This document shows positions 96 through 35,754 of a stretch of 36,892 bases of DNA, one piece after another. The first letter of the stretch is position 1. Every line of letters begins with the position of its first letter. Under the pieces are notes generated by a model, which was given only the letters and a program-made list of their open reading frames with translations, ran no database searches and was not told the DNA's origin. Source of the DNA: a virus; IMG/VR virus record IMGVR_UViG_3300035661_000173, positions 1 to 36,892 of that record. One strand, 5' to 3'. The position numbers were made by a program, and so were the translations under genes.

Positions 96-132
96 GGTGG
101 CGATGTGCCACCAACCATCTCTGAGGAGAGAT
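96..132 (+). promoter_or_regulatory. Structured leader with SD in hairpin loop
   Basis: Two hairpins precede the ATG at 136. The first has arms GGTGGC (96-101) and GCCACC (107-112). The second has arms ATCTCT (117-122) and AGAGAT (127-132) around the tetraloop GAGG (123-126). The SD GAGGAG is therefore half in the loop and half in the stem, 3 nt before the start codon. This is seen directly; translational control is inferred. Confidence 0.55.
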
Positions 133-135
133 CAC

Positions 136-708
136 ATGGCTAAGACGATGCTCCAGAAGCTCGGAATCGGTGAGACCGACGAGCAGAAGACCCCCGACCA
201 GAAGCCAGCCAGCACCGAGAAGGGCTTCCTCTCATACCACTCGGAAGGAAAATTCTTGGCGAGCTTTTTCTCTTTTGGACCCGCAGTTCCCAAGGAGAAG
301 AACCGCCGTCTTGCTGCTTCCCTCGTCAGCCGTAACTTCAAGTTCGCCTCAATCCAGAACGCTGAAGAGGTGCTACGAGTGTTGCTCCCCAGCGGCATTG
401 TCGAGGATGCCAAGTTCAATGGCTGGACCCTCACCGAGGTCGTCAAGCACGCCCACGACATCATCGAGGCCCGGAAGAGTGAGAAGAAGCCGATCAAGGA
501 GGTCGCTGACTACGATGTGAAGCGGCTCGTCAACATCCTGGCTGGTCTCTCTGCGAACACCACTCCCGAAGAGCTGCTCGCCGAGCTGAAGCTGATGGTC
601 AATGAGAAGGGTGATGCTGCTATCGCAGTCCTGAACAGGATGCTTCTGAATGAGAACCCTCGCGACAAGGATGGGTTTGTTTACTGCCGTCGAGTAAAAG
701 CTAAGTAG
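136..708 (+). CDS. Unknown phage protein, paralogue of right-end gene
   Basis: 190 aa. I chose the ATG at 136, which has GAGGAG just upstream, over an in-frame GTG at 97 that lies inside the leader hairpins. I do not recognise the family. The N-terminal 45 residues are polar and probably flexible; the rest looks helical and soluble, with no membrane segment. The C-terminal half, from GWTL onward, aligns with the protein encoded at 36305-36892. Shared features are G-(W/Y)-TL, an RL..(L)LA.L..N.T..E.LA.L stretch, an AAI and a terminal G-(F/W)-V..R. It stands alone on the plus strand, faces the late block tail to tail, and is closed by a strong terminator. A regulatory or nucleic-acid-binding role is possible, but nothing in the sequence proves it. 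Confidence 0.8.
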   Translation: MAKTMLQKLGIGETDEQKTPDQKPASTEKGFLSYHSEGKFLASFFSFGPAVPKEKNRRLAASLVSRNFKFASIQNAEEVLRVLLPSGIVEDAKFNGWTLTEVVKHAHDIIEARKSEKKPIKEVADYDVKRLVNILAGLSANTTPEELLAELKLMVNEKGDAAIAVLNRMLLNENPRDKDGFVYCRRVKAK

Positions 709-15846: not shown

Positions 15847-16517
15847 TTAGAGGCCTGCTGCTGTAACCTCGTCAATATCGTAGAGTTCTGCGCGAAGTGT
15901 GTCGGGGTTGACGCAGCCAGCATCAGGGATCAAGGAGAACTTGACCTTGGCGGTGGCGAGATCGGTGCCCTTCATGTCGAACTTGATCTCAGGATCGATG
16001 GTGGCGCAGTAGGCCAGAACGTGCTCGAACTCACCAGGGAACTGAGTGGAGGGGATCTGGACCATCACGACGTAGCGATTGGCGACAACCTGTCCACCAG
16101 TCGAGAGTGACTTACGACCGGCCTTGCCAGTAGCAGCGGTGATGGTCGTCAGCTGACCAGTGGTGCTGGAGAGAACGTCCTGAAGGTGAGCGACGTCAGT
16201 GTCGTTGAAGGTCACTTCAATGCTGCCTTCGAATGCACCATAGCCGACAGTGGCCTTTGCGCCACCCATGCCGGTCTTGGCGATGGCACTGGCCTTGAGG
16301 TCAACACTGACACCCTCACCAGCGAGGTCAACCCACGGCTTCACACCGCCGGCCATACCCTTGCGGATATCACCATCAGTGTAGAAGAGACCGTAGACGG
16401 CCTTGCGAGCGAGAGCGAGGGTTGCCTGACCAGAAGTGGTAGTTGCAAGCCAAGGTGCTAGATACACCTGGCAGTTGCCGACGCGGTAGTACGAGGAACG
16501 CTGTTGAGCGGTTGCCA

Positions 16518-16518
<1 letters not shown>
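15847..16518 (-). CDS. Major tail tube protein
   Basis: 223 aa. Position (after small head-tail completion genes, before frameshifted chaperones and tape measure), size and strong isolated terminator all fit the major tail subunit that polymerises into the tube. It begins MATAQQRSSYYRVGNCQVYL. It has a beta-rich core with AKATVGYGAFEGSIEVTFND and a C-terminal region ATIDPEIKFDMKGTDLATAK typical of tube beta-sandwich strands. The start codon overlaps the upstream stop (TAATG). The call rests on context and general features more than on a named motif. Confidence 0.85.
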
Positions 16519-17407
<889 letters not shown>

Positions 17408-26469: not shown

Positions 26470-26589
26470 CTAACACAGGTGGCGAACAAGAATGAGAATC
26501 CCGAGTATGGATGAGCCAATAGCTAAGCTAATTACGAAGCTCAGTGCGATTTCTACGGTGCCCTTTGCGATTGACTGGATGAATGACAT
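26470..26589 (-). CDS. Small membrane protein, 39 aa
   Basis: MSFIQSIAKGTVEIALSFVI start, then a single hydrophobic helix of about 24 residues ending in VRHLC. I chose the ATG at 26589 because GGGAGGAA stands 6 nt upstream within a leader hairpin. An in-frame ATG at 26646 preceded by GGAGG would give 58 aa with an extra charged N-terminus, and cannot be excluded. A one-helix protein near an endolysin could be a pinholin or lysis regulator; this is inference. Confidence 0.6.
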   Translation of the reverse strand: MSFIQSIAKGTVEIALSFVISLAIGSSILGILILVRHLC

Positions 26590-26591
26590 TT

Positions 26592-26618
26592 GTAGTTCCT
26601 CCCTACCCCTTAGCTTCC
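26592..26618 (-). promoter_or_regulatory. Leader with SD in hairpin loop
   Basis: mRNA arms GTAG and CTAC (plus-strand positions 26603-26606 and 26592-26595) enclose the 7-nt loop GGAGGAA, just before the ATG at 26589. Upstream is GGAAGCTAAGGGGTAGGG, like the leaders at 28603 and 29427. Confidence 0.5.
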
Positions 26619-26828
26619 TGGAGGATTCTTCAACTCTGTTTTCCATGCAGGCAGACCTCCGCTGTATGCGCTTCTGATCGGCCTGTAGAAGCCCCATTTC
26701 TGCTGAATTGACGTTGCGTCGATATCCACAGTTTCTGCGGATTCCGTATGCGCTGATGGAGGTGTAACTGCTCTATTTACAGGGCGAAATAGTTTGTTTT
26801 CTGATGGATTTCCCTGTGCCCTGATCAC
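26610..26828 (-). CDS. Possible small protein, 72 aa
   Basis: Open frame from a GTG at 26828 with AGGAAACAG directly before it. It ends SAYSGGLPAWKTELKNPPGS, 21 nt before the next ATG. The composition is polar (HTESAETVDIDATSIQQKWG) with no motif. It lies in the divergent region between a minus and a plus gene, so it may be chance. Low confidence. Confidence 0.3.
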   Translation of the reverse strand: MIRAQGNPSENKLFRPVNRAVTPPSAHTESAETVDIDATSIQQKWGFYRPIRSAYSGGLPAWKTELKNPPGS

Positions 26829-26866
26829 CTGTTTCCTGAAGAAAGTGGGGGCTAAGGAGGTCAGTC

Positions 26867-27079
26867 ATGACCAACAAAATCGAAGCCAAGCTCATCGCCG
26901 CCACCAGCAAGGCGATGGAACTCATCAGCACCGGTTCAACCGAAGTGTGGTCCTCACAGTTGGGAGACCTCACCAAGAAGCAGTTCATCACTGTTCTGCT
27001 TCGCCTCAACAACACCGGCTTCAAGGTCCAGCACATCACCAACAGCTACGACAACGGTTTCGTTGTTGTGAAGAAGTAG
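26867..27079 (+). CDS. Small protein, 70 aa
   Basis: ATG at 26867 with AAGGAGGT 6 nt upstream. Helical N-terminus (MTNKIEAKLIAATSKAMELI) and a beta hairpin end (GFKVQHITNSYDNGFVVVKK). First of three plus-strand genes forming an islet among minus-strand genes, all with good SDs and ending in a terminator, so they are expressed independently of the late block. No family recognised. Confidence 0.75.
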   Translation: MTNKIEAKLIAATSKAMELISTGSTEVWSSQLGDLTKKQFITVLLRLNNTGFKVQHITNSYDNGFVVVKK

Positions 27080-27087
27080 GAGCAGAG

Positions 27088-27309
27088 ATGCGGAAACCTC
27101 AGTTCATCACCGATCACTACGAATGGAGCCACGGAAAGCCGCCCTCAGGGCGTGGGACGTGGGCATTCGGGACGAAGAGCAACCCGGACGTTCTCAACAC
27201 GAAGGAATGCTTCTTCACCACCTGCAACACGCTCTACAGCGAAGCGAAGAAGGAAGCCGCTCAGTGGGCCGTCAGGAACGAAGAACCCCTCATCTACGTC
27301 CTTCCCTAG
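27088..27309 (+). CDS. Small protein, 73 aa
   Basis: ATG at 27088 with AGGAG 5 nt upstream, 8 nt after the previous stop. MRKPQFITDHYEWSHGKPPS start, then GRGTWAF and a helix SEAKKEAAQWA, ending PLIYVLP. The small, aromatic-rich alpha/beta layout is typical of phage accessory proteins. A longer frame starting at 26794 overlaps the first gene and is rejected. Function unknown. Confidence 0.72.
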   Translation: MRKPQFITDHYEWSHGKPPSGRGTWAFGTKSNPDVLNTKECFFTTCNTLYSEAKKEAAQWAVRNEEPLIYVLP

Positions 27310-27317
27310 GAGCCACC

Positions 27318-27500
27318 ATGCAAGCGAGTGAAGCGTTCTACCAAGCAGCACACGTCTTCGGACAGGCCTACCGTAGAGGAGAAGTGTGGGCAGTTGAACT
27401 CGATCAGCACTACAACCAGCGAGGTATGGCGACCTGCCCCATCAACACCTGGACCGCTGCTGAGCAGAAGAGGTTCGTTGAGGAGGTCTCTAAGCACTAG
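27318..27500 (+). CDS. Small protein, 60 aa
   Basis: ATG at 27318 with TAGGAG upstream, 8 nt after the preceding stop. MQASEAFYQAAHVFGQAYRR helix, then NTWTAAEQKRFVEEVSKH, a helical end. Last gene of the islet, followed 17 nt later by a strong terminator. Unknown function. Confidence 0.72.
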   Translation: MQASEAFYQAAHVFGQAYRRGEVWAVELDQHYNQRGMATCPINTWTAAEQKRFVEEVSKH

Positions 27501-27517
27501 ACAGCACCGAACACAAC

Positions 27518-27549
27518 AAGAGCCCGGTTGTTCAGCACCGGGCTCTTTT
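27518..27549 (+). terminator. Rho-independent terminator of plus-strand islet
   Basis: Arms AAGAGCCCGGT (27518-27528) and ACCGGGCTCTT (27537-27547) with an 8-nt loop, followed by TTCTTG. Confidence 0.9.
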
Positions 27550-27584
27550 CTTGCCATCTCGGGTCCGTCTATTGACCCTTCCTA

Positions 27585-27607
27585 TTCATTGTCCTACGGT
27601 TTGTCTA
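27585..27607 (-). promoter_or_regulatory. GGACAAT motif in convergent gap
   Basis: The minus strand reads AGACAAACCGTAGGACAATG. It follows the stop of the 74-aa membrane protein gene and would read leftwards, antisense to the small plus-strand islet. It may be a promoter for the minus strand or a remnant; unproven. Confidence 0.25.
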
Positions 27608-27629
27608 ACTTCACTTCGAAGTGGATAGT

Positions 27630-27854
27630 TTAATCGACAAGGACCTTCCATCCGCAACGGTCGTAGAACTTGGCCAAGGTTTCACGATCACATGAGGCAC
27701 TGCGCTCAAGGTTTCCATGCTCGAAGACCATGTATAGGACACAACCAATACAGGTGATCGCACAGAGGATGGAAGGCAGCCAGTGTGAACCTGGGATTGC
27801 CAGAGCAGCCATGTTGAAGCCAAGAAGCAGTGCGGTTGAGTTGAATATAGTCAT
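27630..27854 (-). CDS. Small two-helix membrane protein, 74 aa
   Basis: ATG at 27854 with GGGGAGG upstream. Hydrophobic segments at about residues 5-24 (NSTALLLGFNMAALAIPG) and 27-46 (PSILCAITCIGCVLYMVFEH), followed by a polar C-terminal domain (ERSASCDRETLAKFYDRCGW). Candidate inner-membrane protein: superinfection exclusion or an alternative holin are possible, but nothing is diagnostic. Its leader carries the GGAAAAGCTTGAGGGATAGT version of the recurrent motif. Confidence 0.68.
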   Translation of the reverse strand: MTIFNSTALLLGFNMAALAIPGSHWLPSILCAITCIGCVLYMVFEHGNLERSASCDRETLAKFYDRCGWKVLVD

Positions 27855-27876
27855 TGAGTTCCTCCCCTTGTATTAA

Positions 27877-28242
27877 CTATCCCTCAAGCTTTTCCAACTC
27901 GATTTCTGTACGTTCGTGGTCAGCTGCCACCTTCTCCAGGGTGAGCTTCCAGATCATCGAGTCATCGATCTCCAGAGCAGCGAATATGGCATCCACACAC
28001 AGCTTCTCTAGATTCGAAGCGTCTCGCTTCTTCACTGTGCCATTCAGATTGAACCATCGGGTTGAGTAGAAGCGAATGTGGACCTGTAGGAGTCCCTCTG
28101 GTGGCTTCTCGTTGAGAGCGCGAACGATCTTCTCTACCTCGACCTTGTAGGCCCTGGCTTCGGGTGCTAGCACTCGAAACCTGCCTCGGGTGATGAAAGC
28201 GTGATTCGTGGTCATGGGTAGGCCTGGGATGCTGATCAACAT
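27877..28242 (-). CDS. RusA-like Holliday junction resolvase
   Basis: 121 aa, the usual RusA length. MLISIPGLPMTTNHAF opens like the family (I-x-G-x-P-x-x-x-N), so I keep the ATG at 28242 over the later ATG at 28215. The catalytic region reads VKKRDASNLEKLCVDAIFAA (70-89) then EIDDSMIWKLTLEK: Asp74, Asn77, Lys80, Asp84 and the Asp93/94 pair correspond to the metal site. One oddity: the second Asp of the R-D-x-D-N motif is Ser76. The enzyme would resolve branched DNA during phage replication or recombination. It is the only clear DNA-metabolism enzyme of the minus-strand accessory block. Confidence 0.85.
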   Translation of the reverse strand: MLISIPGLPMTTNHAFITRGRFRVLAPEARAYKVEVEKIVRALNEKPPEGLLQVHIRFYSTRWFNLNGTVKKRDASNLEKLCVDAIFAALEIDDSMIWKLTLEKVAADHERTEIELEKLEG

Positions 28243-28246
28243 GCAG

Positions 28247-28277
28247 GCCTAACAACAAGAGAGCCGCACGATGCGGC
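28247..28277 (-). terminator. Probable terminator upstream of rusA-like gene
   Basis: mRNA stem GCCGCA and TGCGGC (plus-strand positions 28272-28277 and 28263-28268) with a 3-nt loop, followed by TCTCTTGTTGTT. It would end the transcript of the 87-aa gene upstream; a moderately strong signal. The rest of the 28243-28336 gap shows nothing else. Confidence 0.6.
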
Positions 28278-28336
28278 CCCTTGCGTAGCTGTGATCCTGA
28301 TGTGAATGCTAGCTACTGATGAGTGGTTCTAACTTC

Positions 28337-28600
28337 TTAGCTCTCCCACGCGATCAGGTTGTACTGATGCTGGTCCAGAATAGAGTCAAGACGCTCTGTA
28401 GCGTTCTCATCGTTGTAGTCAATGAACTCCCTGAGCACATCGTTCATGAAGTTGGTGCCGCTACGAAGCTCTATGCCAACCAGTAGGCGGTCTGGATGGT
28501 TGTCATTACCTCTCACGAGAACAGGATTGCCTCGGAAGCTGTAGTGGCCTCCGGTCGTATTCTTGTTGAGGTAGTTGAGCTGCTCGGAAAGCGTTTGCAT
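28337..28600 (-). CDS. Unknown accessory protein, 87 aa
   Basis: MQTLSEQLNYLNKNTTGGHY start, then a beta region FRGNPVLVRGNDNHPDRLLV and an acidic helix NDVLREFIDYNDENATERLD. Soluble and acidic, so an anti-host or regulatory role is conceivable but unproven. The ATG at 28600 lies in the stem of a leader hairpin whose loop is the SD. Nearly the same leader precedes the HNH gene at 32251. Confidence 0.7.
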   Translation of the reverse strand: MQTLSEQLNYLNKNTTGGHYSFRGNPVLVRGNDNHPDRLLVGIELRSGTNFMNDVLREFIDYNDENATERLDSILDQHQYNLIAWES

Positions 28601-28626
28601 GGGTTCCTCCCCATAGCTAAGCTTCC
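28599..28626 (-). promoter_or_regulatory. Leader hairpin: SD in loop, start codon in stem
   Basis: mRNA arms ATGGG and CCCAT (plus-strand 28610-28614 and 28599-28603) around the loop GAGGAA. The AT of the start codon pairs in the 3' arm. Upstream GGAAGCTTAGCT is shared with 32224-32235. Confidence 0.55.
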
Positions 28627-28635
28627 ATGCTGTTT

Positions 28636-28989
28636 CTAATACTCATCAGCCAGCAAGATGGTCGCTACGCGAGTGGTGACCTGATCATCAGCTGGGTCTT
28701 CTGAGTAGAATCTAAGCTCTTCTTCAGCCGCATACATATCCCACTTTAGATAGAACTTGGTCTCTCCTAGTGTGAGCATAAGCATGTCTCGCTCACCCCT
28801 AGGATCGATGTCGTCCGAATCCTGCTCAGGACCGCAGAGGAGCGCTGCAACCGCCTCCATACCGCGTGTATGAGCCGTTACACCGCGTGTGAGAAGCAAC
28901 CGAGCAAACTTGGGCTCTGGCGCGGGTCCGGCGGCGAATCTGCGCCTCCAAAATTCATTCCTGGTTCCTATTTCGTTTCGTTCAGACAT
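28636..28989 (-). CDS. Unknown accessory protein, 117 aa
   Basis: ATG at 28989 chosen because GGAGG stands 7 nt upstream; an in-frame extension to 29010 lacks an SD. Basic N-terminus (MSERNEIGTRNEFWRRRFAA), a helix with GMEAVAALLCGPEQDSDDID, then a beta hairpin (DMLMLTLGETKFYLKWDM) and an acidic helix. No motif recognised. The SD is fully paired in an 8-bp leader hairpin, so translation may be conditional. Confidence 0.7.
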   Translation of the reverse strand: MSERNEIGTRNEFWRRRFAAGPAPEPKFARLLLTRGVTAHTRGMEAVAALLCGPEQDSDDIDPRGERDMLMLTLGETKFYLKWDMYAAEEELRFYSEDPADDQVTTRVATILLADEY

Positions 28990-28993
28990 GGGT

Positions 28994-29030
28994 AGACCTC
29001 CTCGGCGCACCCTAGTCGCTCTGGAGGTCT
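28994..29030 (-). promoter_or_regulatory. SD-sequestering hairpin
   Basis: In the mRNA, AGACCTCC (29030-29023) pairs perfectly with GGAGGTCT (29001-28994), burying the SD of the ATG at 28989 in an 8-bp stem with a 21-nt loop. Confidence 0.6.
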
Positions 29031-29048
29031 CGCACCAAGAATGAGATT

Positions 29049-29423
29049 TTAGTTGGTAGCAGTGGGGGCCGGGTCTGCTGGCAGGATGATGAGTTCCTTC
29101 TGCTCGTAGCCGACATAAGCGCCGTAGCTGTTCTTACCATTGATCTCGTAAGTGACCATCCAACCGTACTGGTAGCCACCCCCATTGATCAAACCTTTAT
29201 AACCAGCACAGCGACCACGAAGCTGGATGTTGCGGATCTTGATGGAGTCGGGGTCCTTCCAGTTCTTACCCGCCACTGTGTTGTTGACCAGCTTGACGAT
29301 CATCTCCTGAGAGGGCTGGGGTCCGCACAGCGCGTACGTGTCTGGTGTGACCTCAGGCCTCAAGGGAGCACACCCGACGTTCATCAGGGCGGCAAGACAG
29401 ATTGAAATGAAGATTTTGCTCAT
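29049..29423 (-). CDS. Putative lipoprotein
   Basis: 124 aa with a signal peptide (MSKIFISICLAALMNVGCAP) ending in a lipobox-like NVGC, so Cys18 would be lipidated. The mature part has two further Cys (ALCGPQPS, GRCAGYKG), a KDPDSIKIRNIQLRG strand and YGWMVTYEINGKNSYGAYVG. Phage lipoproteins are often expressed from prophages and can block superinfection or change the host surface; this is family-level inference. It is the first minus-strand gene left of a divergent promoter region. SD AGGAGG precedes the ATG at 29423. Confidence 0.78.
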   Translation of the reverse strand: MSKIFISICLAALMNVGCAPLRPEVTPDTYALCGPQPSQEMIVKLVNNTVAGKNWKDPDSIKIRNIQLRGRCAGYKGLINGGGYQYGWMVTYEINGKNSYGAYVGYEQKELIILPADPAPTATN

Positions 29424-29426
29424 GTT

Positions 29427-29465
29427 GTTCCTCCTGGGTTCCTCTAACCCTACCTTTCAGCTTCC
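29427..29465 (-). promoter_or_regulatory. Divergent leader, lipoprotein side
   Basis: mRNA GGAAGCTGAAAGGTAGGG, then stem GGGTT and AACCC around AGAGG, then AGGAGGAAC before the ATG. It mirrors the plus-strand leader at 29506-29536. Confidence 0.45.
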
Positions 29466-29505
29466 GGGCGAGGTCAACAGGAACGGCTCACAACGCATAG
29501 AACGT

Positions 29506-29536
29506 GGAAATCCGGGTTAGTAGAACCAGGAGGAAC
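29506..29536 (+). promoter_or_regulatory. Divergent leader, plus-strand side
   Basis: GGAAATCCGGGTTAGTAGAA, then CCAGGAGGAACC before the ATG at 29542. GGTT pairs with AACC around AGTAG. It shares GGTTAG...AACC.AGGAGGAAC with the opposite leader, so the two divergent genes have matching 5' signals. Confidence 0.45.
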
Positions 29537-29541
29537 CACCA

Positions 29542-29754
29542 ATGCGAAAACAGCCACTGCAAACACCGAAGAGGACAGTAGACATCAACATCTACCTGTC
29601 TCCAGAGCTGGTAGTCCAGCTGACACCAGAGGAGAAGTACAACCTAGCTCACTTGTGGCCGGAGGATCTTCAACGCTTCGAGCAGCAGTGGCAGATGCAC
29701 CTCAGGACGTTTGGGGCTACGAACCAGTTTCCATGGAGGCCAAATCCCTGTTAG
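29542..29754 (+). CDS. Small protein, 70 aa
   Basis: MRKQPLQTPKRTVDINIYLS start, followed by ELVVQLTPEEKYNLAHLWPE and a helix DLQRFEQQWQMHLRTFG. First gene of the plus-strand early-like segment. The fold looks like a short strand plus two helices (a ribbon-helix-helix-like DNA binder is conceivable but not shown). Good SD (AGGAGG) 6 nt from the ATG. Confidence 0.7.
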   Translation: MRKQPLQTPKRTVDINIYLSPELVVQLTPEEKYNLAHLWPEDLQRFEQQWQMHLRTFGATNQFPWRPNPC

Positions 29755-29778
29755 GAAAACCTAAAGGACAATTCAAGG
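29754..29778 (+). promoter_or_regulatory. GGACAAT motif upstream of 560-aa gene
   Basis: GGAAAACCTAAAGGACAATT then CAAGG, on the plus strand and the same sense as the downstream gene. That the motif switches strand with gene direction supports it being a transcription or translation signal. Confidence 0.45.
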
Positions 29779-29810
29779 GCTGGTTGAGGGATCAGCACTG
29801 AGAGGAAGAC

Positions 29811-31493
29811 ATGAAGGACAAGAAGTTCGTTCCACGCAAGCAGCTCCAAGTTGGTGACTGCCTGATTCGCATTGGTCTCGTTGGATTCCAGAAGCAGATC
29901 CTATGCGACAACCTTAATGACCCAAGGATCGCAGCTGCATTCAAGGACGTAGCGTTCTACAAGCAGCATGTTGGTATGAATGGGTATTGGACTCGTTGCA
30001 CCGTTCCCAGTCGTGCAAAGGGTAAGAGTCGCTTAGACAAGAACGGCATCGAGAAGACAACCAAGACCCTACAGAGTGGATGGAAGCCCTTTCAACCTCT
30101 CATCCAAGCTGTAGCTGCTAGCAAGATGTTCAAGGCAGCTCACGAGGATGCCATCAACTTCTACGATGCTGACGGTCTCAACAACCAATCTGAAGAGATT
30201 CAGCAGGCAGCATTCATCAAGCTATCCCATGCACTCAAGGGAAAGGCAGTCGTCTGGAGGACAGCAAGCGGCTCACCCAAGGCAGCAATGTGGGTCAGGG
30301 ACCTCTCAGTCGGCGAATGCCTCGCCTTAAACCGCGATATCCACGCTGAGGTGTTCGGAGGGGTGGACATCTATGCTCCAGCGAGGAACCACTCCGACAT
30401 GACGTGTGCCTTCGCGGTCAATCAAGAGGTGCTAGACGCCTTCTGGTCCTTCTTCTCGCAAGCGAAGGAACCTATCCGAGCTGGACAGGACACAAGACCT
30501 GTCTACGTGGAAGAGATCAAGCAAACACCGGTAGGGATGGAATACCTGAAGGCCTCATGGGGAGTAGAGGTGGTAGAGGAACCCGTATGGGACTACCCAC
30601 AGCACCCCTTAGCAGCTAGTAGGACTTATGAAGAGGGTGTAGAGGGAGAGGTTGAAGAGGGTCAAACCCCCAGCACCCCCTTAGCAGCTAGTAGGACTTA
30701 TGGCTTGCTCCAGCACAACCTATCTAGACCTATCTATTTGGGAGAGTTACCCAAGAGTTTGTTCGAGAGGGTCTCGCTCATGCAGGAGATCGCCATCAGG
30801 TACGCGTTGTCGATGCCTGATGCGTTCCTGTCCGATGAGGGTGTGGCTCTGTCCAGTGTCATCACTCAGAAGCTAGCGTTCGAGCATTACCCTGATCGAT
30901 TCAAGCCAAAGGTGTTCAAGGGGAAGGTAGATTCGTCTGCTGCTGGCAAAGCGATCAACGCTCTGGTCGCTAGGGGTGTGATGGCTTGTGCTAGTGAGGA
31001 CCGCTACGACCTTGTATCAACGATTGCTGAGGTAGGTGAGGGTGGCGAATACATCGAGAGAGTGGAGAAGACGACTACCAACTACGTTCCTGGCATCCGA
31101 GCAAGAGCGTTCCGAGCTGTCCATCCTGACTTGATCGAACTAGCTAGCAAATTGATTCAAGAGAGGACTCCTGGCATCCGTGGCTGCGCTACAGCCGTTG
31201 AAGCCGCTGCTCTCTATTTGAAGGTCACTGGTAAGAGGATTGAAGACACTCCGCTAGATGGTTGCAGCAATGAGACCATCTTCCCCCTCTCCAGCTATTG
31301 CGACTCGCTGGAGGTCTTCACCGACCTCTGCTACATGATTCCCACGTTTTCAGACAAGGAAGACCGCGTGGCACGCCTCCCCTACCAGTGGGCGGCTCAT
31401 CTCAGAGGTGATCGCCGCAAAACGCAGCGAAATATCGAAGGCCTGTTAAACCAGGTGACCCTTGAGGAAGGGATTCAGGAGGAGTTCGTATGA
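29811..31493 (+). CDS. Large unknown early protein, possible replication protein
   Basis: 560 aa, with GAGAGGAAG upstream of the ATG at 29811. No family recognised. The N-terminal 230 residues are alpha/beta and basic (KKFVPRKQLQVGDCLIRIGL). Residues about 265-300 form an acidic linker containing two copies of PLAASRTY. A likely winged-helix region follows (VSLMQEIAIRYALSMPDAFL, AAGKAINALVARGVM), and then a helical C-terminus with RGDRRKTQRNIEGLLNQV. Size, first place in the rightward early-like operon and the possible winged-helix domain suggest a DNA-binding replication or partner protein. No polymerase, helicase or primase motif is visible. It overlaps the next gene by 4 nt (ATGA). Confidence 0.8.
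   Translation: MKDKKFVPRKQLQVGDCLIRIGLVGFQKQILCDNLNDPRIAAAFKDVAFYKQHVGMNGYWTRCTVPSRAKGKSRLDKNGIEKTTKTLQSGWKPFQPLIQAVAASKMFKAAHEDAINFYDADGLNNQSEEIQQAAFIKLSHALKGKAVVWRTASGSPKAAMWVRDLSVGECLALNRDIHAEVFGGVDIYAPARNHSDMTCAFAVNQEVLDAFWSFFSQAKEPIRAGQDTRPVYVEEIKQTPVGMEYLKASWGVEVVEEPVWDYPQHPLAASRTYEEGVEGEVEEGQTPSTPLAASRTYGLLQHNLSRPIYLGELPKSLFERVSLMQEIAIRYALSMPDAFLSDEGVALSSVITQKLAFEHYPDRFKPKVFKGKVDSSAAGKAINALVARGVMACASEDRYDLVSTIAEVGEGGEYIERVEKTTTNYVPGIRARAFRAVHPDLIELASKLIQERTPGIRGCATAVEAAALYLKVTGKRIEDTPLDGCSNETIFPLSSYCDSLEVFTDLCYMIPTFSDKEDRVARLPYQWAAHLRGDRRKTQRNIEGLLNQVTLEEGIQEEFV
30600..30702 (+). repeat. Direct repeat pair inside the 560-aa gene
   Basis: A 31-nt copy at 30600-30630 and a 32-nt copy at 30671-30702, identical apart from one extra C. 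The shared part includes TTAGCAGCTAGTAGGACTTA. Both encode PLAASRTY. The 40 nt between encode an acidic run. Could be a recent duplication or protein-binding sites (iteron-like). Confidence 0.8.
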
Positions 31494-32056
31494 GGGTTCT
31501 AGTTGTTCCAAGTGGTCGTGCTGCTGCTAAGGTCGCAGCTGCGATCACAGAGTTGAATTTGCAGAGTGAGGAGCTTGTCTTTGCTGACTGCCCCACTGCT
31601 GCTGAGAAATATCCTGACTTCAACATCGTTGAAGGTGTAGAGATCAACGGGACGCAGAACCCGACTCTCTGGAAGCTGAATGTCCAGACCGCAGTTGAGA
31701 ACGTTGACGCTGTTCTCTTCTTCATGAGCACCAGCGGACAGAACTACGGGACACTGCGAACCTTCAAGGTGTTTGCCAAAGACAAGCTCTTCTGGGTCTT
31801 CGACAACGGGTTGGCAGACGAGTTGTATCCGATCATGGAGCTGCGACCAAAGGTTGTCAGTAAGGTTGGTTCCTTCGAGCGAGCTGCTAAGTCCTTCTTC
31901 GCTTCACACAAGAAGGCGAGCAAGGAAACACTTGAGCAGCTACAGCTGATCGACCTGCTAATGGATCGAGCTTTGGAAGCTCTAGCTAGCAACAAGAACG
32001 CTTCTATTGCGCCAGTCAAGCTCCCAAGACCGAAGAGATCGGAATTGCTGGGATAA
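31490..32056 (+). CDS. SLOG-like Rossmann nucleotide-binding protein
   Basis: 188 aa, starting in an ATGA overlap with the 560-aa gene. The N-terminal strand and helix MRVLVVPSGRAAAKVAAAIT, then VDAVLFFMSTSGQNYGTLRT (about 73-92) with an S-x-G-x-x-x-GT phosphate-binding-like turn, then KLFWVFDN, resemble the SLOG / molybdenum-cofactor-carrier / lysine-decarboxylase-like Rossmann group. Some of these bind or process nucleotides or nucleotide-derived signals. The C-terminal 40 residues are helical and basic. A role in nucleotide modification, signalling or counter-defence is possible; only the fold class is supported. Confidence 0.6.
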   Translation: MRVLVVPSGRAAAKVAAAITELNLQSEELVFADCPTAAEKYPDFNIVEGVEINGTQNPTLWKLNVQTAVENVDAVLFFMSTSGQNYGTLRTFKVFAKDKLFWVFDNGLADELYPIMELRPKVVSKVGSFERAAKSFFASHKKASKETLEQLQLIDLLMDRALEALASNKNASIAPVKLPRPKRSELLG

Positions 32057-32069
32057 TGTTATTGAGTTC

Positions 32070-32188
32070 GTCAGCGGTCCCTTGAACTACCAACCCCGCT
32101 GACAGGGCCAGCGAAGTTCTGGCCTGCTAGGGTAAACAGCTTCCTCCTGTACCCTAGCCACAAGGCCCCCATCAGTTTTGGGGGCCTT
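32070..32188 (+). ncRNA. Four consecutive hairpins; candidate regulatory RNA
   Basis: Stem 1: GTCAGCGG (32070-32077) with CCGCTGAC (32096-32103). Stem 2: GGCCAG (32106-32111) with CTGGCC (32119-32124). Stem 3: CTAGGGTA (32127-32134) with TACCCTAG (32150-32157), plus inner CAG/CTG, giving loop CUUCCUC (32140-32146). Stem 4: AAGGCCCCC (32162-32170) with GGGGGCCTT (32180-32188). All are perfect. Stem 4 is terminator-like but lacks a T run. The loop of stem 3 is complementary to the GAGGAA loops of several leaders, including 32241-32247 just downstream. Could be a leader, attenuator or small RNA. No coding frame is evident. Confidence 0.5.
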
Positions 32189-32223
32189 GCCTTGCGTGAG
32201 GAACAGAGTTGAGGAAACAGACC

Positions 32224-32256
32224 GGAAGATTAGCTATGGGGGAGGAACCCATGCTA
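32224..32256 (+). promoter_or_regulatory. Leader hairpin: SD in loop, start codon in stem
   Basis: Arms TAGC (32231-32234) and ATGGG (32236-32240), with one bulged T, pair with CCCAT (32248-32252) and GCTA (32253-32256). The loop is GGAGGAA (32241-32247). The ATG at 32251 is inside the stem. Almost identical to the leader at 28599-28626. Confidence 0.6.
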
Positions 32257-32949
32257 TTGACACCTGAACAGCGACGCTACTTAGCTCAAGAGCTTCTACT
32301 CAAGGATGATTGGATGGCATTCAACCAAGAGCTTTGGCATCTAGTTGATTGTGAGAATCCAGATCCAATCATCATGGCTTCGCTAGTGCTCAAAGAGTAC
32401 CTTCCTGTGAAGCGGCTCTATGATCGCCACTTCCTCAACAAGATCCAAAAGGCCCCTGTCGAGCATGTTGAGAAGTGGTTGTGTGACATCCTTGTTTGGA
32501 TCAGAGCCAACAAGTCAGCAATCGATTCCTACCAGTCAGAGCGAAGGTGGCACGCGAACCGCAGAAATATTGAGCTAAACCCGCGTTGGAAGAGGTTCCG
32601 TGAGTTGTCCAACGCGATGATGCGAGAAGAGAAGAGCTGCATGAAGTGTAAGCAGTTCAGAGGACACCTCCAGCTAGATCACGTTCGACCTGTAAGCAAT
32701 GGAGGTTCCTTTTGGGATCTCCGCAACGTGCAGTTACTTTGCTCCGACTGCAATATCAAGAAGTCGAGCACCACAGCTGACTTCAGGACTGATGACTTCA
32801 AGAAGCATGTTGATGGCTTCATCAAAGAGAACACTCGGGACTACCAACTCATGTTGTGTACACCGGAGCCGGAGAAGGCCTTCTTCAGCTCTCAACCGAT
32901 CCGAATGAATCGCGTCATCCAGAAGACCTTCGACAAGTCCTGCGCCTGA
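32251..32949 (+). CDS. HNH endonuclease
   Basis: 232 aa from the ATG at 32251, which has GGAGGA 4 nt upstream. A TTG at 32209 with its own GAGGAA is an alternative and would add 14 residues. The N-terminal 115 residues are helical. The C-terminal HNH domain shows C-x2-C (130-133, SCMKCK), HLQLDHVRPVSNGGS with Asp143-His144, Asn159 (RNVQLLC) and C-x2-C (164-167, CSDCNIKKSS). Such domains nick or cut DNA, acting as homing enzymes or in packaging. It is not next to the terminase here, so a mobile endonuclease or an early nuclease is more likely. It is separated from the SLOG-like gene by the hairpin cluster. Confidence 0.88.
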   Translation: MLLTPEQRRYLAQELLLKDDWMAFNQELWHLVDCENPDPIIMASLVLKEYLPVKRLYDRHFLNKIQKAPVEHVEKWLCDILVWIRANKSAIDSYQSERRWHANRRNIELNPRWKRFRELSNAMMREEKSCMKCKQFRGHLQLDHVRPVSNGGSFWDLRNVQLLCSDCNIKKSSTTADFRTDDFKKHVDGFIKENTRDYQLMLCTPEPEKAFFSSQPIRMNRVIQKTFDKSCA

Positions 32950-33175
32950 CCATAGAGGCATTCTTCAGAGCCCCAACGCGACGTTTTTATCGCGTCGGTG
33001 GCTCTCTGGGTGCGCGAGGTCTCCCCGGAGGTCTTAAAACGTCGTTTTCGGTGTCTGGATTTACATCTCTTTTTTTTCATTTTGAACTTGGCATGTTTTT
33101 CTTCTCGTTTTTATCACATCAGCGAGAACGCCAACTCAAATTAATTCTTCTACCCAAACCCCCACCCGTGCGTGG
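32950..33175 (+). promoter_or_regulatory. AT-rich intergenic region with hairpin and repeats
   Basis: Holds a compound hairpin, AGAGCC with GGCTCT outside and ACGCGA with TCGCGT inside, between about 32967 and 33006. Two copies of CGTTTTTATC lie at 32982-32991 and 33106-33115, and there is a T-rich run. TTGAAC and TTGGCA near 33082-33095 are possible -35 elements for the micro-gene operon. No gene seen. Confidence 0.35.
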
Positions 33176-33200
33176 ACTTCCCGGTTTGGTAGGAGGAAGT
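33176..33200 (+). promoter_or_regulatory. Leader hairpin overlapping SD
   Basis: ACTTCC (33176-33181) pairs with GGAAGT (33195-33200). The SD AGGAGG (33191-33196) is partly in the stem, one base before the ATG at 33202. Confidence 0.45.
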
Positions 33201-33201
33201 A

Positions 33202-33471
33202 ATGAACAACGATCAAGTCAGCAAGGTGGCAGCAGAGACGAAGCTGCTCACACTCATCGAGCTTTACGCTTCGATGCTGGTGGTAGATAGGTGGATGAAG
33301 GATGAGGACTTCAGCGATCTCACCTTCGAGCAGGTCAGAGCGATGCAGCAGGCAGAGCGCGGTTGGCCAGACAGCGATATTGATGATGATACCAATGCTG
33401 AGTACATCAAGCAGTTGGATGCCATCAGCGAAGGCGTTGTGCTTGCGTTGATGCAGAAGGGAGGTAAGTAA
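33202..33471 (+). CDS. Small acidic protein, 89 aa, first of four coupled genes
   Basis: Helical and acidic: MNNDQVSKVAAETKLLTLIE, WMKDEDFSDLTFEQVRAMQQ and SDIDDDTNAEYIKQLDAISE. It ends in GGK, encoded by GGAGGTAAG, which serves as the SD of the next gene; TAA and ATG overlap. Acidic, helical early proteins of this size are often inhibitors of host enzymes; that is only a possibility. Confidence 0.75.
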   Translation: MNNDQVSKVAAETKLLTLIELYASMLVVDRWMKDEDFSDLTFEQVRAMQQAERGWPDSDIDDDTNAEYIKQLDAISEGVVLALMQKGGK

Positions 33472-33611
33472 TGAAGAACAAGGATGTAATGAAGCAGACA
33501 GTAGCCGACAAGCTCTGTCTTGCAGTGAAGAAGCGCATCTCAGAACAGAAGCGTGTAGCGAAACTGGCTCGTCGTCGTCAGCGCTATGCCGAGAAGAATG
33601 GAGGTAAGTGA
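33471..33611 (+). CDS. Small basic protein, 46 aa
   Basis: MKNKDVMKQTVADKLCLAVK start, then KRISEQKRVAKLARRRQRYA, ending NGGK. Very basic and helical, so it probably binds nucleic acid (inference from composition). The terminal GGAGGTAAG again provides the next SD, and TGA overlaps the next ATG. Too regular in its coupling to be chance. Confidence 0.7.
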   Translation: MKNKDVMKQTVADKLCLAVKKRISEQKRVAKLARRRQRYAEKNGGK

Positions 33612-33781
33612 TGGACAAGGTTTGGTCTGAAGCATGGTTCGTGCAGATGAGTCGTCGTGGCTTCAAAGGAGATGATCCAGGAGCATTCATGCGAAGCATC
33701 GCAAAGGAAGATATCCCGAAGCAGATGGAAGAGTTCGACGCGATCTACAACGAGTTGCTTGCTGCGAAGGGAGGTGAGTGA
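33611..33781 (+). CDS. Small protein, 56 aa
   Basis: MDKVWSEAWFVQMSRRGFKG start, followed by PGAFMRSIAKEDIPKQMEEF and AIYNELLAAKGGE. The end is encoded by GGAGGTGAG, the SD of the next gene, with a TGATG overlap. Two short helices around a basic RRGFKG turn. Function unknown. Confidence 0.7.
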   Translation: MDKVWSEAWFVQMSRRGFKGDDPGAFMRSIAKEDIPKQMEEFDAIYNELLAAKGGE

Positions 33782-33954
33782 TGAAGGTAGATGGCAAAGC
33801 ACTCCTAGCTCTCTGCTGCACTCCTCCTGCTAAGAAGAAGGATCGTCTCTTCACCAGCGATGTAGCAAAGCAGTTTGCTAATCTCACTGAAGACGGAGAT
33901 TGCAAGCCCCGTGCTAAATTTCCCAAGGTAGTGAGTCATAGGAACACTTACTAG
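33781..33954 (+). CDS. Small protein, 57 aa, last of micro-gene operon
   Basis: MKVDGKALLALCCTPPAKKK start, then DRLFTSDVAKQFANLTEDGD, ending VVSHRNTY. It lacks the GG-K/E ending of the three upstream genes, as expected for the last member, and is followed by a terminator. A CC pair near the N-terminus. Function unknown. Confidence 0.68.
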   Translation: MKVDGKALLALCCTPPAKKKDRLFTSDVAKQFANLTEDGDCKPRAKFPKVVSHRNTY

Positions 33955-33981
33955 TTCAAGCAAACACCCACTCACCGTCAT

Positions 33982-34005
33982 AGCCCCCAGCGATGGGGGC
34001 TTTTT
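33982..34005 (+). terminator. Rho-independent terminator
   Basis: AGCCCCC (33982-33988) and GGGGGCT (33995-34001) around AGCGAT, followed by TTTTATTT. It separates the micro-gene operon from the integrase. The ATG at 33993 lies in its loop and is therefore not a credible integrase start. Confidence 0.92.
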
Positions 34006-34035
34006 ATTTCGATGAAAACCCTCGCACCGCCTCCT

Positions 34036-34065
34036 CCCGCGTGAAATGCAGGTTAGAGACACCTG
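34036..34065 (+). repeat. Direct repeat, left copy, before integrase
   Basis: CCCGCGTGAAATGCAGGTTA then GAGACACCT. It matches 35393-35425 with a few changes and a small gap (CCCGCGTGA, TGCAGG, GA(G), ACACCT shared). Candidate integrase arm-type or recombination site. Confidence 0.5.
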
Positions 34066-34081
34066 GAGGAAAACAGGTGTC
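34058..34081 (+). promoter_or_regulatory. Inverted repeat around integrase SD and start codon
   Basis: GACACCTG (34058-34065) and CAGGTGTC (34074-34081) enclose the loop GAGGAAAA. The SD spans the first arm and the loop, and the GTG start is in the second arm. A related sequence (GACACCTGGAGGACAGGT) recurs at 35645-35662. Confidence 0.65.
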
Positions 34082-35180: not shown

Positions 35181-35401
35181 CCTGGAAAACCGCAAACCAA
35201 GGCACTAGGAAGACAAACACTAGTGGCTTCAAAGGAGTGAGTTGGTACGCTCGAACAGGTAAGTGGAACGCTCAGGTCTGCCATCAACGCAAGTACTACA
35301 ACCTTGGGTACTTCGACACACCAGAAGAAGCTCACGAGGCGTACAAGGTAAAGGCGCTCGAACTCTTCGGCGAGTTTGCCTATGATGGTTTGCCCGCGTG
35401 A
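35177..35401 (+). CDS. Orphan AP2 DNA-binding domain protein
   Basis: 74 aa, nearly only an AP2 domain: NTSGFKGVSWYARTGKWNAQ then YYNLGYFDTPEEAHEAYKVK and LFGEFAYDG. It closely resembles the C-terminal domain of the HNH-AP2 enzyme at 25958-26452 but has no HNH nuclease. ATG at 35177 overlaps the integrase stop by 4 nt, so it is co-translated with the integrase. Known AP2 domains bind DNA. It may be a decayed endonuclease or may have been recruited as a DNA-binding accessory (excisionase-like) for the integrase. Its stop codon lies within the right copy of the flanking repeat. Confidence 0.85.
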   Translation: MTWKTANQGTRKTNTSGFKGVSWYARTGKWNAQVCHQRKYYNLGYFDTPEEAHEAYKVKALELFGEFAYDGLPA

Positions 35402-35425
35402 GGTGCAGGATGAGAAGGACACCTC
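35393..35425 (+). repeat. Direct repeat, right copy, after AP2 gene
   Basis: CCCGCGTGAGGTGCAGGATG then AGAAGGACACCT. Matches 34036-34065. A third CCGCGTGA stands at 35502-35509. Confidence 0.5.
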
Positions 35426-35688
35426 CGCTTACAGTTTTGGAGACCCTTGAAACCCACTGTCAGCGCAACGCTCCGTGTTTTCCGCATTTAGAGAAATTTG
35501 ACCGCGTGAGTGTCCATACGGGTAAACTGCTCTTTCTAATGGGTTTAGCCGGAAAAACTGATAGCTAACTGATTCTCACCTATAAAGTCGAATGCGATTT
35601 AATGATTGAAAATAGGGCTGTTTAGAACGTGACAGGACTGGAATGACACCTGGAGGACAGGTTTTCCGTCCGATCGGTAATAACGAAC
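35402..35688. other. Non-coding region after integrase, candidate attP
   Basis: About 290 bp with no convincing gene. It contains part of the right flanking repeat, CCGCGTGA at 35502 and GACACCTGGAGGACAGGT at 35645-35662, plus a relatively AT-rich stretch 35560-35625. Position next to int and the repeated boxes make it the best place for the phage attachment site; the core cannot be defined from one sequence. Confidence 0.4.
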
Positions 35689-35711
35689 GAAGCCCACTCA
35701 CCGTGGGCTTC
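35689..35711 (-). terminator. Terminator of right-end minus-strand operon
   Basis: GAAGCCCAC (35689-35697) and GTGGGCTTC (35703-35711) with a 5-nt loop. On the minus strand it is followed by GTTCGTTATT. About 45 nt after the last stop of that operon. Confidence 0.8.
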
Positions 35712-35754
35712 AAGGGTCTCAATGACCTCGGGTTCGTGCGGTGCTGGTAATCGA

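Follow-up and report, generated by a model that had tools for sequence, protein, structure and literature searches.

A candidate repeated start-associated cassette with gene-specific Shine-Dalgarno stems before non-structural genes of a temperate phage

The nearest described system found for the leaders reported here is that of the cluster K mycobacteriophages, in which SAS (GGGATAGGAGCCC) and the extended SAS (ESAS) are repeated over the ribosome-binding site (RBS) of non-structural genes, with GGG...CCC symmetry around AGGAG and, for ESAS, with putative promoters; their function is unproven (PMC3203893, PMC11373665, PMC12699233). SAS copies have been sought as the 13-bp GGGATAGGAGCCC with at most two deviations (PMC3203893, PMC12699233). 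Cluster K provides the only repeated start-associated sequences found described. The phage reported here is unrelated yet shares that layout, and with copies that have diverged and a box that either is the Shine-Dalgarno (SD) sequence or sits apart from it, it lends itself to asking whether such boxes act on DNA, on RNA or as an RBS alone. Many short repeated sites within one temperate phage genome are also known as the stoperators of cluster A mycobacteriophages, which serve transcription control (PMC3203893), whereas the sites described here lie at start codons.

The window, that is, the whole stretch of 36,892 bases that was analysed, is a complete IMG/VR record of a tailed phage whose genes include those for a phrog_15 terminase, a portal, a capsid and a tape measure, and a tyrosine integrase gene starting at GTG 34077 (genes are named here by the position of their start codon). 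The phage is temperate and unclassified. Megablast of positions 1-24000 against 50,697 phage records gave zero matches, and TerL and capsid have distant relatives only, at identities of up to 36%, the best matches being to non-mycobacterial phages such as those of Serratia, Roseobacter and Synechococcus, with the freshwater cyanophage S-LBS1 among them; on both counts the phage falls outside cluster K. The top match in an aligned TerL search was again at 36% identity, with no close relative, and none was found when GTDB genomes were scanned with the integrase; IMG/VR protein scans with the 560-aa protein, the integrase and TerL yielded no relative near enough for covariation. A search with the leader pattern gave 19 single matches, none carrying the cassette by profile, and these had no genes in common beyond a 35% stretch of an HNH/AP2 protein. 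Several homing-type genes are present in this one phage (25958-26452(-), 35177-35401(+), 3808-4539(-) and 32251-32949(+)), comprising AP2 domains (one with HNH), a GIY-YIG endonuclease and an HNH endonuclease. The 560-aa gene contains a perfect 26-nt direct repeat (CCCCTTAGCAGCTAGTAGGACTTATG) at 30605-30630 and 30677-30702.

Start codons were picked by hand from the SD and the reading frame, and leaders of 60 nt were aligned pairwise and compared with 5000 shuffles. Pair scores of 60, 42, 38, 36 and 36 exceeded every shuffle (maximum 32), the pairs concerned being 32251/28600, 32251/26589, 29542/34077, 34077/29423 and 29542/29423, and the majority of the top-scoring pairs join two accessory genes. 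Homology extends across 40-56 nt among the leaders of 32251, 28600 and 26589 (set A; TTGARG...GGAAGCTTAGCTATGGGGAGGAACCC-ATG) and across about 27-37 nt among those of 29542, 29423 and 34077 (set B type; roughly CGTGAAATCCGGGTTAGAGAACCAGGAGGAAC); a repeat search also found 41- and 28-nt inverted copies. These leaders lie directly before the starts, the SD boxes of cassette A standing 5-8 nt from those of 32251, 28600, 26589 and 27854 (Table 1). What the leaders have in common is primary sequence. Leave-one-out profiles recover 32251 (E 2e-5), 26589 (E 8e-5) and 28600 (E 0.013), with E values of 0.7-2 for 27854, 29423, 29542 and 34077, and with a profile of the three A leaders the 29423 leader is the top non-member (E 0.047); the homology between the two sets, like that of 27854, is weak. 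What links the sets in the joint alignment is a GGG(TTA)GAGGAACCC box, the GGG-GAGGAACCC of A sitting over the GGGTTAGAGGAACCC of B; this box constitutes the SD in set A, and in set B it precedes a second SD (at 29423, the separate SD is AGGAGG). A profile search of the structural block found no cassette A at E < 0.1, and a promoter scan recognised no consensus at these leaders. Repeated leaders are not purely a trait of accessory genes, as the structural genes 15595(-) and 9004(-) share a different one (GGCAGGACAATT..AAGGA..CCCAATG), which scores 48 and so exceeds all shuffles. At 889-860(-) there is a third GGACAATT copy, with TAGGAGG, but no clear gene.

Table 1. Leaders and leader copies in the window; arm, loop and arm of a stem are separated by hyphens.
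Feature	Positions	Strand	Leader type	Stem or dyad
Leader of gene 136-708	117..138	+		117-132, ATCTCT-GAGG-AGAGAT
Leader of gene 28600-28337	28598..28640	-	cassette A	28614-28599, ATGGG-GAGGAA-CCCAT
Leader of HNH endonuclease gene 32251-32949	32193..32253	+	cassette A (TTGAGG..GGAAGATTAGCTATGGGGGAGGAACCCATG)	5 bp around SD, 32236-32240/32248-32252, ATGGG-GGAGGAA-CCCAT
Leader of small gene 26589-26470	26587..26649	-	cassette A, arms diverged	4 bp, 26606-26592, GTAG-GGAGGAA-CTAC
Leader of gene 27854-27630	27852..27895	-	partial cassette A (GGGGAGGAACTC); overlaps rusA end	
Leader of gene 29423-29049	29421..29475	-	cassette A-like box	29450-29436, GGGTT-AGAGG-AACCC
Leader of gene 29542-29754	29501..29544	+	cassette B	29515-29527, GGTT-AGTAG-AACC, upstream of separate SD
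Leader of tyrosine integrase (GTG 34077)	34034..34081	+	cassette B	8 bp, 34058-34081, GACACCTG-GAGGAAAA-CAGGTGTC
Leader of DUF3768 gene 28989-28636	28987..29030	-		8 bp, 29023-29030/28994-29001
Leader of gene 33202-33471	33176..33204	+		ACTTCC/GGAAGT, 33176-33181 with 33195-33200
Leader of gene 16518-15847, structural operon	16516..16538	-		CAATCT-AAGG-AGATTG around SD
Orphan copy of integrase leader (CGTGACAGGACTGGAATGACACCTGGAGGACAGGT)	35627..35662	+		arms ACCTG/CAGGT
Second partial integrase-leader copy (CCGCGTGAGGTGCAGGATGAGAAGGACACCT)	35394..35424	+		

As in SAS and ESAS, a short element with an AGGAG core is repeated at the RBS of some non-structural genes and is not limited to one gene family, there is an outer GGG/CCC symmetry at the SD, and an upstream extension may contain a promoter. 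Unlike SAS, the consensus here is GGGGAGGAACCC with variants, the copies are far less uniform and are found on both strands, the stems reach 8 bp, and some copies have a separate SD downstream of the box. By inspection, none of the boxes GGGGAGGAACCC, GGGTTAGAGGAACCC and GGGAGGAACTAC comes within two changes of the SAS consensus; cassette A shares the SAS location, a few nucleotides from non-structural starts, and the box of cassette B lies further upstream. The cassette of this phage is not a member of SAS, although by analogy it may work like it.

An earlier note on this DNA had listed seven stand-alone genes (136, 26589, 28600, 28989, 32251, 33202 and 34077) with an inverted repeat around or over the SD, and had remarked that the tightly coupled structural genes it looked at do not obviously show it. 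All seven pairings are present in the sequence, but as a single class the count is inflated by mixed architectures: only 136, 28600, 32251 and 34077 are strong cases, and the other three (26589, 28989 and 33202) are borderline or do not stand out. The stem at 34077 encloses the SD and takes the start codon into its 3' arm (folding z -3.06), that at 28989 pairs the SD itself across a 21-nt loop and is borderline (z -1.67), and the leader of 136 has no homology to cassette A or B. Two were rejected as significant hairpins in their own right, namely 26589, where 4 bp compares with 1.5 in 20 leaders expected at that length (z -0.18), and 33202, with its 13-nt loop (z +0.24); further upstream of 33202, CGTGGA..CCGG resembles cassette B. 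A restriction to stand-alone genes was likewise rejected, since 28600 and 28989 closely trail same-strand genes, starting 35 and 59 nt past their stops, and are not clearly stand-alone. The absence from structural genes fails at 16518, which carries a stem around its SD.

The excess of such stems was measured by counting perfect stems with at least four SD bases inside a 4-9-nt loop, thresholds that were chosen after the earlier list had been seen, against 1000 permutations in which the SD and start codon were fixed and the remaining bases permuted. Stems of at least 5 bp are found in 4 of the 20 SD-bearing accessory leaders (136, 28600, 32251 and 34077), with 0.34 expected and the count reached by none of the 1000 shuffles; as a class they exceed chance. 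Structural leaders have one (16518, 6 bp) against 0.2 expected, and in six annotated phages 3 of 141 SD leaders have a stem, which matches the chance expectation (about 2% in other phages). With a single automatic gene rule applied throughout, 4/14 leaders in the window have such a stem, against 7/347 across about 100 other phage stretches (Fisher P 4e-4; counting the homologous pair 28600/32251 once raises it to 0.004). The enrichment is confined to starts and is absent genome-wide, where SD-loop hairpins number 27 listed rows, about 22 of them distinct, against 21 expected under a Markov model. The SD itself is unrecognisable at 15 of 27 structural starts (1-26 kb block, minus strand), as against 3 of 23 accessory starts. 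In folds of -30 to +10, accessory leaders have a mean z of about -0.9, compared with 0 in structural leaders and +0.1 to +0.15 in control phages (accessory versus SD-bearing controls, Mann-Whitney P 2e-5), and the accessory leaders that the list had left unnamed go in the same direction (mean z -0.64). This better folding of accessory leaders depends on the span folded, being weaker at -40 to +20 and almost lost at -25 to +20 (accessory -0.17); the pairing signal is therefore located upstream of the start codon.

The preferred reading, held at a shade better than even, is that of a repeated start-associated expression cassette with gene-specific SD stems. A leader of about 25-55 nt (GGAAGCTTAG...GGGGAGGAAC, in two related forms) would have been duplicated before non-structural genes on both strands, each copy bringing its own strong SD. 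The cassette would act as an expression signal, an RBS that probably has promoter or operator sequence ahead of it. This fits the extent of the similarity, which at 28600, whose leader occupies the 35-nt gap behind the preceding gene, starts about at the stop codon of that gene, and at 32251 and 26589, the first genes of transcription units, extends about 56 nt upstream, through a TTGA-box. Short stems enclosing the SD, present in some copies and, independently, at 136 and 16518, would then tune initiation gene by gene, with no common effector. If transcription begins within the cassette, the left arms may be absent from the mRNA.

It is unlikely, though worth weighing ahead of the other alternatives, that the start-overlapping dyads (GGGTT-N5-AACCC, ATGGG-N6/7-CCCAT and ACCTG-N5/8-CAGGT) are DNA operators which bind a phage repressor, excisionase or integrase, with RNA pairing as a by-product. 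Operators of this kind would account for boxes that also stand upstream of a separate SD at 29423 and 29542 and for half-sites that are partly common within a set, and it was DNA-binding sites that Pope et al. (2011) favoured for the cluster K ESAS repeats (PMC3203893). Downstream of the integrase there are two partial copies of its leader, and one of them, with its dyad at 35646, has no start codon at SD distance; because the arms are present there without a start, this orphan copy favours a DNA site at that position. The arms of 136, 16518, 34077 and 28600, however, have no common half-site sequence, the left half-sites differ between the sets, and the ORFs searched yielded no recognisable repressor gene. 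The region past the integrase and AP2 genes is flanked by a 24-nt inverted repeat (88%; 35440-35463 and 35697-35720), which may belong to attP or to a terminator.

Less probable again is the model of the earlier note, in which one trans-acting RNA-binding protein or RNA switches the translation of accessory and integrase genes, here taken to recognise SD-in-loop hairpins in the manner of CsrA. It is borne out in part, many accessory genes having leaders that are related to one another and an excess of SD-loop stems being found there, but a single switch is unsupported: the stems vary in the sequence of their arms, in register and loop length and in where they lie relative to the SD, and three leaders have a separate SD downstream of the homologous box. 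The common stem in the joint alignment comes down to three GGG/CCC pairs with one compensatory cell, a number reached by 144 of 500 shuffles; covariation equals that of shuffled columns, and a common hairpin is not supported. Pairing falls from 89% in register to 67% and 56% when the partner is slid by one column, a drop that is expected because the structure was read from the consensus. The loops GAGGAA, TGAGGA, TAAGGA, GGAGGAA and GAGGAAAA do present GGA or GAGG on a stem of 4-8 bp, as would suit CsrA, which binds GGA, often in a hairpin loop, and may cover the SD (PMC6686035). The better folding of accessory leaders than of controls fits as well, yet GGA or GAGG is inevitable in any loop that holds such an SD, a stem also occurs at a structural gene, and homologous leaders do not keep the hairpin, which is lost at 27854 and displaced at 29423 and 29542. 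The likeness to CsrA/RsmA repression consists in a GGA within a short hairpin loop at the SD; the CsrA consensus has an A at -2 of the GGA, which is mostly missing here, and the phage ORFs searched include no CsrA-like protein and no recognisable RNA-binding regulator; CsrA-type control is a lead only. No Rfam match reached the gathering threshold. Because the box at 27854 is kept with no stem of at least 4 bp directly around the SD, and the arms at 136, 16518 and 34077 are unrelated, a common trans-acting factor that reads structure is possible rather than likely.

More doubtful still is the view that nothing is regulated, strong RBSs having been spread by duplication and the stems being a chance excess in some 20 leaders. 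The independent strong accessory cases are only three, the P value of about 0.004 with the pair collapsed follows a choice of thresholds, the folding signal fades in the -25 to +20 span and SD-loop hairpins are not in genome-wide excess; nevertheless, the excess stands against shuffles, structural genes and the roughly 100 other phage stretches, and 34077 alone has a perfect 8-bp stem. Least probable of all is start-associated control outside the mycobacteriophages in which a phage or host factor would read an SD-centred stem-loop box and co-switch the translation of dispersed non-structural genes, the integrase included. At 33455-33788, three successive small genes (33471, 33611 and 33781) have near-identical GGAGGTRAGTRATG start junctions.
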